Shown piece after piece: positions 39,503-41,817 of a DNA stretch of 64,000 nt. Numbering within the stretch: position 1 is the first letter of the stretch; each line of letters begins with the position of its first letter. The position numbers and the translations under genes are program-made. The notes under the pieces are model-generated. The model worked only from the letters and a program-made list of their open reading frames with translations, made no database searches and was not told the DNA's origin. The DNA comes from Anaerobaca lacustris (lineage in GTDB: Bacteria > Planctomycetota > Phycisphaerae > Sedimentisphaerales > Anaerobacaceae), in NCBI RefSeq assembly GCF_030012215.1, contig NZ_JASCXX010000001.1:310001-374000 (forward strand). The letters run 5' to 3'.

Positions 39503-40204
39503 ATGGACAACAATACAGCACGTCAAGAGCCTCGTGTGATGAGTCGCGATCAAGTGCGGTCGGTGGATCGTTGGGCAATCGAACAAATCGGCCTGCCGGG
39601 GATTGCGCTGATGGAGAACGCCGGACGCACTTGCGCCGAGTTCATCATGGACAGGCTCGGTCGCAAGGCGATGTGCCGCATCTGTATCTTCTGTGGGACG
39701 GGCAACAACGGCGGCGACGGGTACGTCATCGCACGCCACCTGCGCAACGCCGGCCATACGGTGCATGTGGTCCTTTGCGGTGATCGCGAGAAGGTCCGCG
39801 GCGACGCCCGGATCAACCTTGACGTTCTCGGCGCGCTGGGCGAGGACATCCGGCAACTGGACCCGGGCCGTGCGGATATGCCCGGCCTTGTGGCATCGCT
39901 GGCCCAGGGGGCGGACATGGTTGTTGACGCGCTGTTCGGGACGGGTCTGCAAGGGCCGCTGCGCGAGGACTACCGCATGCTTGTCGAGGCGATCAATGCG
40001 CTGGCTGCCCCGGTTCTGGCGGTGGATATCCCCTCCGGGCTCGACTGCGACACGGGTCGGCCCCTCGGTGCCGCGGTCCGGGCCGACTGGACGATGACTT
40101 TCGTGGCGGTCAAGAAGGGGTTCCTCGCGTGTTCGGACGCCGGGGAATACACCGGAGAGGTCCACGTGGCTTCCATCGGCATTGAGCCGAGGACAACCAC
40201 ATAG
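39503..40204 (+). CDS. nnrE: NAD(P)H-hydrate epimerase (YjeF N-terminal domain)
   Basis: 233 residues from the first ATG, or 221 from ATG 39539. It epimerises damaged R-NAD(P)HX so that the dehydratase can repair it. GLPGIALMENAGR, CGTGNNGGDGYVIAR, DALFGTGLQG and AVDIPSGLDCDTG cover the family core. The ADP/ATP-dependent dehydratase domain that is fused in many bacteria is missing, so NnrD must be separate. The start at 39539 (MSRDQVRSVDRWAIE) agrees best with the family's usual length, while the promoter position allows a leaderless start at 39503. Confidence 0.88.
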   Translation: MDNNTARQEPRVMSRDQVRSVDRWAIEQIGLPGIALMENAGRTCAEFIMDRLGRKAMCRICIFCGTGNNGGDGYVIARHLRNAGHTVHVVLCGDREKVRGDARINLDVLGALGEDIRQLDPGRADMPGLVASLAQGADMVVDALFGTGLQGPLREDYRMLVEAINALAAPVLAVDIPSGLDCDTGRPLGAAVRADWTMTFVAVKKGFLACSDAGEYTGEVHVASIGIEPRTTT

Positions 40205-40292
40205 AGCGAACGCTCTGCCACAACGACGGTCGGAGAAACCCGACCTTCGGGCCATGCCGCTACGCTACGGGGTACAGCGGATCGCCTTCCAA

Positions 40293-41765
40293 TCAGAATG
40301 CGCCGGGCTTGCCGATGTAGTTCTCGTAGCCGATGAGGTAGAGGAACCGGTCGAACGTGAACACCGGGATGTAGAACGCCTGGGCCTGTTGCCGGACCTG
40401 GTCGTAGTATTCCCGCCGCTGACGGGCCGCGTCATACTTGTCCCGCAACGTTGGGTCGCTTGCCAGGTCGTCGAAGCTCGGCTCGCGCGGGACTTGCGGT
40501 TCCGTGCCGAGAATGACGAAGTCAGTCTTGGCCGAGACGTCATCGGACGTGGCGCCACCCCATCGCTGAATCAGGTCTGCGATTCGGGTTCTCGCGTCGT
40601 AGGTCGGCTGTCCCTTGCCGGTCAGGTCGAAATCGCCGGCGATCACGAAGTGATTCTTCTTGCCCGCGTCCCAGATCAGGTTGGCGACGATGTCGTCGGT
40701 CGCAATCGGGTTCCTCCTCTCGGACGACAGGATTCTGGCGGTGGAGGTGGTCTTGCCGATGGCGAACACCTCGATCTGGGCCTTGGGCTTGCTGTCTCTG
40801 GGCACGCCGGACGCCTTGTCGTACACCGAGAACGTCAGGCCGCGATAGATGCGATCATCCGAGCCCAGGTTGATGTGGACGATGCCGCTCGCCTCATCCA
40901 CCAGGATGATCCTGCCGTCGGGCTTGTGGGCCGGGGCCTCCGGGTCGGGCGACGGCTGGATCTTGGCGACGTCCGTCAAGGCGCCGCTCAGTCGCTGCTG
41001 GGCGATCTCGAGCTCGGCCTGTGTCTTGATCAGGTCCTGATTCAACTGTCGCGACAGGGCCCGCTCCTCCTCCAACTGCCGGAGGATGTTGGCGGCACGC
41101 TGTTCGGAGCTCTGCTCGAGCAACGCACGCAGGTCATCGTAGTCGGCCTTGGTCTGCTGGACCTGAAGCTCGTATTCGCCGATCCTGGCGTTGAGATCGT
41201 CCGCCGTCTGCTGCCACAGTTCGGTTGCGTCGGTGAATTCCTGCTGGAGCTTCTGGAACTGCTGTGTCCTGGCGTCGAGCTGCTCGGAGGTCTGCCTGAC
41301 CTTTGCCACCAGATCGCTCGCCATGGACCTCCACGACACCCGGTTCGGATCGGCCAGATCGGGCTCGGCGGCGTTGGGGTCGGGGGCCCCGATGTTGATA
41401 TGCGGGCGCGCCTGCTCGACGAGAGACCGGAATGCGTTGGTGGCCTGTCCCACGTTCACTTCGGCGCTGGTGACCTGGATCGGGCGGCCCACGATCAGGG
41501 CGACGACCCGGTTGTAGTACTCGACCATGCTGCCGAGGTTGGTCTGGCCGGGAAGTCTCGTTCCAACGATGTCTCCGACGCGCCGCACTTCATCGGCCGA
41601 GGCCATCCTGCTCAACTCGCTCTGCGCCTCCTGGGTGGTGGTGCGCAGTTCTTCGGCCTTCACGTAGTAGATGACCGCAGCCGTCGTCGCGATGATGAAC
41701 AGCCCGACGAAGGTGATCAGCGTATAGAGCATGGCATTGCTTTGACGTCTCTTACCTGGCGGCAT
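40293..41765 (-). CDS. Membrane-anchored coiled-coil protein with FlgT-like and BRCT-like C-terminal parts
   Basis: 490 residues. One N-terminal membrane helix (about 12-35) suggests the rest is extracytoplasmic or at least membrane-tethered. A Gln/Glu-rich coiled coil follows (about 40-265). Next is a small beta domain (about 275-365; ILVDEASGIVHINLGSDD, then YRGLTFSVYDK) that resembles the C-terminal domain of flagellar FlgT. The end (about 370-485) reads like a BRCT domain: HFVIAGDFDL, IQRWGGATSDDVSAKTDFVILG, and a late Phe/Tyr-rich helix (PVFTFDRFLYLIGY). I do not recognise a named family. GAGGAG precedes the ATG. It is convergent with nnrE. Domain calls were made by eye and the topology is inferred. 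Confidence 0.7.
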   Translation of the reverse strand: MPPGKRRQSNAMLYTLITFVGLFIIATTAAVIYYVKAEELRTTTQEAQSELSRMASADEVRRVGDIVGTRLPGQTNLGSMVEYYNRVVALIVGRPIQVTSAEVNVGQATNAFRSLVEQARPHINIGAPDPNAAEPDLADPNRVSWRSMASDLVAKVRQTSEQLDARTQQFQKLQQEFTDATELWQQTADDLNARIGEYELQVQQTKADYDDLRALLEQSSEQRAANILRQLEEERALSRQLNQDLIKTQAELEIAQQRLSGALTDVAKIQPSPDPEAPAHKPDGRIILVDEASGIVHINLGSDDRIYRGLTFSVYDKASGVPRDSKPKAQIEVFAIGKTTSTARILSSERRNPIATDDIVANLIWDAGKKNHFVIAGDFDLTGKGQPTYDARTRIADLIQRWGGATSDDVSAKTDFVILGTEPQVPREPSFDDLASDPTLRDKYDAARQRREYYDQVRQQAQAFYIPVFTFDRFLYLIGYENYIGKPGAF

Positions 41766-41817
41766 AACAAGACTCCTCGGAACACGAAAAATCGCCCATA
41801 GGCACCAATTTCACCAT

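Follow-up and report, generated by a model that had tools for sequence, protein, structure and literature searches.

In the window, by which we mean the whole 64,000-nucleotide stretch of Anaerobaca lacustris DNA analysed here, positions 40293..41765 of the minus strand hold a gene for a membrane-anchored protein of 490 aa, with a Shine-Dalgarno-like GAGGAG (41773..41778, minus strand) read directly 7 nt 5' of the ATG. Relatives of the protein are numerous, and against five same-genus homologues the dN/dS of the open reading frame (ORF) is 0.136-0.285; the frame is therefore a real gene under purifying selection. From the N- to the C-terminus, the AlphaFold model comprises a membrane helix (about residues 12-36), helices up to residue 269, a FlgT_C-like β-domain (residues 282-365) and a BRCT domain (residues 370-482). 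Upstream, a gene for a HAD hydrolase shares the strand; past the other end come YjeF_N and SurE. Plasmids gave no match. A plus-strand ORF of 539 aa (40182-41801) runs antisense over the whole gene and was rejected as coding, being an open antisense frame: it has no Pfam match over cut-off (best SUKH-4, E 0.047, 14.2 vs 25.5 bits), the frame is open in four of five same-genus relatives with two stops in L005, and a cluster consisting largely of antisense ORFs occurs at 37 of the 69 loci compared, all 69 of which have the minus-strand protein.

The chain begins with a basic tail, MPPGKRRQSNA, followed by a single membrane helix at about residues 13-35 (41661..41729, minus strand), which is identified by hydropathy and spanned in the AlphaFold model by a helix at residues 12-54. 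Family-wide statements rest on an alignment of the window protein with 88 relatives of its class (89 sequences), in which the C-terminal part was aligned separately for the BRCT columns. A further hydrophobic window besides the N-terminal one is found in none of the 89 class members and in 2 of the 22 other-class proteins, where second windows are partly due to uncertain start sites. Behind the membrane helix rises a helical stalk (residues 37-269; 40959..41657, minus strand). The coiled coil of the original prediction stands here as one long predicted helix, residues 145-269, but not as a heptad pattern, for the 3.5-residue periodicity of the window protein is not significant (914 of 2000 shuffles reach it); among the 89 members, 39 reach p<0.05. 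This 125-residue helix alone, if fully extended, would measure about 19 nm, near the usual width of the periplasm. The distance from the membrane to D283 varies little within the class (median 238, IQR 231-242, range 195-374 in 89 members) and is more variable outside it, 16 of 22 proteins falling within 206-229 (range 175-269) and L157 giving an additional value of 156 from a second match. It exceeds 360 only in L020, L021 and L038, each of which carries a DUF3887 (E 1.2e-21 to 1.7e-18) inserted near the stalk start (L020:742-2562:+, L021:1501-3315:-, L038:760-2577:+).

The β-domain (residues 282-365; 40671..40922, minus strand) was thought from the outset to be FlgT-like and to lie behind a membrane helix, and both points are borne out, the helix being the one N-terminal hydrophobic segment. 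In VIA comparisons, the domain has the FlgT_C (PF16538) fold, with Z 9.4 to FlgT of the LPHT ring (8z5n_0, rmsd 2.3 over 79 residues) and Z 8.6 to 3w1e; the first unrelated row is an F1-ATPase at Z 8.1, with which 3w1e is about tied, so that FlgT 8z5n_0 alone stands more than one unit above it. Pfam FlgT_C is sub-threshold in the window protein (15.0 bits vs a cut-off of 27, E 0.035), and it matches 31 of the 89 members at E<=0.1 (best 7.5e-5); these matches favour FlgT over the F1-ATPase barrels. The β-domain also has a weak PDB profile match to TsaP (3jc8, E 0.0057). Four frames of 305-342 aa (L212, L218, L221 and L224), judged by translation and profile match, combine a membrane helix, a coil and a FlgT_C-like domain without a BRCT and represent a second planctomycete protein type. 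L211 has a FlgT_C-like match close to the C-terminal end of a longer protein, which by eye resembles CsgG.

Residues 370-482 (40320..40658, minus strand) are a genuine BRCT domain, beyond chance at the family level, as had been proposed from the first look at the sequence. When the BRCT columns of the family (89 rows) were aligned by hhalign to 30 BRCTs of LigA type found within the phylum, the match reached 98.5% (E 2e-15, 69 columns), whereas 10 column-shuffled BRCT alignments reached at most 1.25%. The LigA-type set consisted of the strongest Pfam BRCT matches of the phylum, in frames of 675-1046 aa, their type being judged from the look of the sequence. A lack of BRCT similarity in profile or structure searches had been named as the finding that would count against the domain; profiles do find it, and the closest PDB profile matches of this part of the family are the BRCTs of LigA (1l7b, E 8.9e-7) and RFC1 (2ebu, E 2.3e-5). 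Pfam BRCT (PF00533) matches 59 of the 89 members at E <= 0.1 (best 1e-5), and of six other-class orthologues scanned together, five pass the cut-off of 21.3 bits (E 1.8e-18, 9.4e-12, 2.8e-8, 2e-7 and 1e-6; 67.0 bits in L154, 45.4 in L155, 34.3 in L159, 31.6 in L151 and 29.3 in L156), the sixth, L147, having no BRCT match; L158 scores 21.1 bits, marginally under the cut-off, and four class members in the same scan score 15.5-19.5 bits, also under it. In the AlphaFold model, the region has a pLDDT of about 97 and the β-α-β-β-α-β-α order canonical for BRCTs, with strands at residues 372-376, 405-407, 416-419 and 468-470 and helices at 391-401, 431-463 (in two pieces) and 471-478.

A chance or convergent α/β resemblance is extremely improbable. 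It would fit the sub-threshold score of the window protein alone (15.4 bits vs 21.3, E 0.023) and the lack of a BRCT chain among the 50 matches listed in either VIA structure comparison, but it is contradicted by the family-level hhalign match with its shuffle control, by orthologues far over the Pfam cut-off and by a confident model whose strands and helices follow the canonical BRCT order. The VIA and Foldseek lists are filled by the β-domain (FlgT, then F1-ATPase barrels) and thus speak neither for nor against the BRCT; the matches listed by Foldseek for the whole model include 9a6z_B, which is a chain of an integrative model of RPOB-DNLJ (E 1.1e-3, prob 1.00, rmsd 2.8, 108 columns), the aligned range of our model not being shown in the output.

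Several further BRCTs came to light alongside the family. L154 (L154:1877-3277:+; Pfam, 1.8e-18) has two BRCT-like domains, as does L206 by reading of its translation, and L090:6325-7443:- carries a long acidic low-complexity insertion within its BRCT. A strong match of 39.5 bits (G030:C70:9926-10135) sits in a frame of 310 aa, at a distance of 2.6 kb from that genome's LigA-type BRCT. Matches over cut-off in frames of 394-444 aa (G139:C72:1030-1248, G080:C37:2003-2206 and G138:C16:141226-141366), which are apart from the membrane-anchored orthologue, are possible paralogues.

The family BRCT departs from the LigA type in its first loop, in its phosphate site and in its charge. The β1-α1 loop of the window protein (residues 379-390, FDLTGKGQPTYD; 40596..40631, minus strand) is itself without a DxDxDG motif. 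Among the 89 aligned class sequences, 55 have a DxDxDG-like loop of the calcium type at this place, 53 of them by the strict form Dx[DN]xDG, and the loop recurs in 5 of 22 other-class proteins and in none of the 30 LigA-type BRCTs. The phosphate site of LigA- and RFC1-type BRCTs we take to be an S/T before the loop glycine together with a GSK-type lysine. An S/T ahead of the invariant G377 is present in 8 of the 89 members versus 30 of 30 LigA-type BRCTs, and the position aligned to the GSK lysine (V457, by our reading of the hhalign alignment) is K/R in none of the 89, so that the two residues expected of a BRCT that binds phosphate or DNA ends as in LigA and RFC1 are not found together. Net charge is negative in the window protein (-4) and in the family at large (median -6, mean -7.6, range -63 to 3), the extreme values being due to acidic insertions, and slightly positive in the LigA-type set (median +1, mean 0.7, n=30). 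With the residues of the phosphate site gone and an acidic domain, DNA-end reading in the manner of LigA or RFC is unlikely for this family.

The charges flanking the membrane helix suggest which way the protein faces. At least one K/R is present in the N-tail of 83 of the 89 class members, and D/E are lacking in 83 (sets not necessarily identical); in other classes, all 22 N-tails have K/R and only 11 are free of D/E. The net charge is higher before than after the helix in 77 of 89 class members, which favours a cytoplasmic N-terminus; the two sides do not differ in 9, and 3 show the reverse. Among proteins of other classes, the corresponding figures are 14, 3 and 5 of 22. Counts of K/R alone do not discriminate (1.89 in the 12 aa before the helix, 2.37 in the 15 aa after it). 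A low cysteine content (0.22%) was considered as a sign of export and rejected, since LigA-type BRCT, at 0.0%, is equally low and cysteine is therefore no help for topology. Known Dx[DN]xDG motifs, according to a paper on their contexts, are strongly biased to periplasmic, surface or secreted proteins (PMC3123361). Taken together, the charge pattern around the helix, the kinship with FlgT and the DxDxDG loops seen in relatives favour a periplasmic C-terminus, and an N-in/C-out arrangement is predicted to be very probable. The original prediction had left two orientations standing, an outside-facing BRCT as a novel use of the domain and an inside-facing BRCT as a DNA tether. The first is the one favoured by N-tail charge, the single helix, the loops of relatives and the periplasmic kin of the β-domain, its topology being a matter of prediction.

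The second orientation, in which the N-terminus would point outwards and a cytoplasmic BRCT would bind chromosomal DNA or a repair enzyme and pin it to the membrane, is quite improbable. RFC1 BRCT is a DNA-end binder, and the nearest PDB profile matches of the family being the BRCTs of LigA and RFC1 is what one would expect of such a tether, as is a divergent polA near the gene at no fewer than 8 of 40 class loci (L078, L083, L084, L086, L087, L106, L108 and L114) and at least 4 of 18 loci of other classes. Most bacteria, moreover, seem to have one or two BRCT proteins, DNA ligase and a subunit of pol III, on which bacterial BRCTs are otherwise mostly found, as stated in a review of BRCT proteins (PMC10386641). 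Against this, the basic N-tail predicts N-in, the phosphate-site S/T is missing in 81 of 89 members, just 3 of 89 have a positively charged BRCT, the DxDxDG loops of relatives point away from the cytoplasm, and the genome retains a separate, strong LigA-type BRCT. The loss of the LigA phosphate-site residues and the acidity of the domain thus turn the evidence away from a tether.

The gene is widely held, a distribution that the original prediction had not seen. Counting the A. lacustris genome itself, relatives occur in 40 of the 41 genomes sampled from the order and in 148 of the 150 sampled from the class, which makes the gene near-universal in the class, mostly with one match per genome and sometimes with two (G019 has two full-length copies). 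In a sample of the phylum, 217 of 246 genomes are firm, or 220 if unclear ones are included, after LigA cross-hits were taken out. The raw profile search gave 239 of 246, an overcount arising from a profile that includes the BRCT and hence also matches LigA, and for the same reason the figure of 134 of 134 obtained for complete genomes is inflated. Of the 239 genomes, the 36 with the weakest matches were re-searched: 14 had a protein matching both domains, 3 were unclear (G256, G344 and G365) and 19 had nothing beyond LigA-type or other FlgT_C-like proteins. The remaining 203 were accepted without re-search at E 1.6e-9 or better, versus 6.8e-8 for the best LigA-type cross-hit. The gene was found in none of the sampled genomes of two families, f67 (10 of 10) and f95 (4 of 4), with the proviso that a very divergent orthologue could escape the search. 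An HZS_alpha domain match is present in 12 of these 14 genomes; because the A. lacustris genome itself has four, the label anammox-like is only a suggestion for the two families. The four are clustered (G000:C47:3290-16607) in frames of 860-1363 aa. The A. lacustris genome holds one copy of the membrane-anchored gene and the one LigA-type BRCT just mentioned as retained, and the 24 related loci that carry names are all from planctomycete MAGs (labels Phycisphaerae, Phycisphaerales, Sedimentisphaerales and Planctomycetota/Planctomycetes).

The surroundings of the gene were compared by carrying neighbour names over from one Pfam-annotated representative per cluster, and the counts are minimal because they come from a simple ORF heuristic within 4.5 kb only. 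An LpxL-type acyltransferase lies nearby at 10 or more of 40 class loci; at the 18 loci of other classes, tatC is downstream in at least 8, coaE is present in at least 7 and rho in at least 4. In several lineages the gene is syntenic, flanked on one side by polA, coaE and rho and on the other by tatC, as would suit an old gene passed on by vertical descent; its proximity to polA could just as well be a sign of a role in DNA metabolism. Neighbour genes vary between orders and name no partner.

The β-domain and the neighbourhoods also bear on the idea that the protein belongs to a dedicated machine such as a pilus, a type II secretion system or another ring of the outer membrane, in which the FlgT_C-like head would be a ring-associated subunit in the way of FlgT and TsaP, an idea we regard as fairly unlikely. 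FlgT and TsaP are ring-associated proteins, and the recognisable relatives of the β-domain are these two, both belonging to rings by their PDB entry titles; adjacent tandem copies, two at each of 4 of the 18 other-class loci, would suit a hetero-oligomer. However, pilus, secretin and flagellar families are absent from the nine annotated representatives of recurrent neighbours, and occurrence in most genomes is unlike an optional appendage.

Altogether, we lean towards a model whereby the protein is an inner-membrane-anchored envelope scaffold or spacer with a rigid FlgT_C-BRCT docking head. It would cross the inner membrane once, leaving the N-terminus in the cytoplasm and almost all of the chain in the periplasm, and its helical stalk of near-constant length would keep the rigid FlgT_C-like and BRCT head off the membrane. 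The periplasmic BRCT would then serve as a protein-protein docking module rather than as a reader of DNA or phosphate. In many relatives, the calcium-type DxDxDG first loop may, if it binds calcium, stabilise or gate the head. The protein would in this way position an outer-membrane or wall-associated complex, for which it would be the scaffold or spacer. Extended to the phylum, the model becomes tentative: most Planctomycetota may carry a BRCT out of the cytoplasm, on a stalk of near-fixed length, in a periplasmic FlgT_C-BRCT head in which a calcium loop replaces the phosphate-binding loop, as a spacer or scaffold in the phylum's unusual envelope that is absent from anammox-type lineages with a different cell plan.

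The BRCT fold is known, normally as an intracellular module of DNA repair; its membrane-anchored, probably periplasmic use is new to the literature examined. Neither periplasm nor extracellular occurs as a word in the BRCT review (PMC10386641), BRCT as a word is absent from the paper on Dx[DN]xDG contexts (PMC3123361), and the openly licensed papers, as far as their accessible portions go, describe no bacterial BRCT protein that is planctomycete, periplasmic or of the membrane-coil type. The essential-gene paper on Planctopirus (PMC10632474) likewise has no mention of BRCT, and locus tags beside its polA, tried as a guess, gave nothing there. If the model is true, a BRCT outside the cytoplasm breaks the tie between the BRCT fold and DNA metabolism. 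The gene is also a widely held, uncharacterised gene of envelope type in a phylum with a poorly understood envelope and FtsZ-less division; a stalk protein of conserved length across most of the phylum offers a direct handle on planctomycete envelope organisation, and the absence from anammox-like families provides a testable contrast.

Comparison with known systems places the protein near several of them. With the LigA BRCT (PF00533) it shares the fold order, the GG turn, the T-D-F/Y-V-V-x-G strand and the A...I-P-V helix-strand. However, the family consists of membrane-anchored stalk proteins and not of ligases, and its BRCT lacks the T-G and GSK residues, has a long α2, is acidic and, in most aligned relatives of the window protein, has a first-loop insertion with DxDxDG. 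The strict motif in the BRCT loop of relatives resembles the EF-hand-like Dx[DN]xDG calcium loops known from many contexts, but the putative calcium site is found in relatives only. With the C-terminal domain of FlgT (PF16538) from the flagellar LPHT ring, the protein shares a fold; the rest of FlgT is not seen, the domain is joined here to a BRCT and a membrane stalk, the family stays under the 27-bit Pfam cut-off in all 16 genomes searched, and F1-ATPase barrels come close to it in score (8.1). TsaP, a LysM domain protein (3jc8), is matched weakly through the same β-domain, whereas the window protein has no LysM match in the Pfam scan, is anchored by a membrane helix and has an added BRCT.
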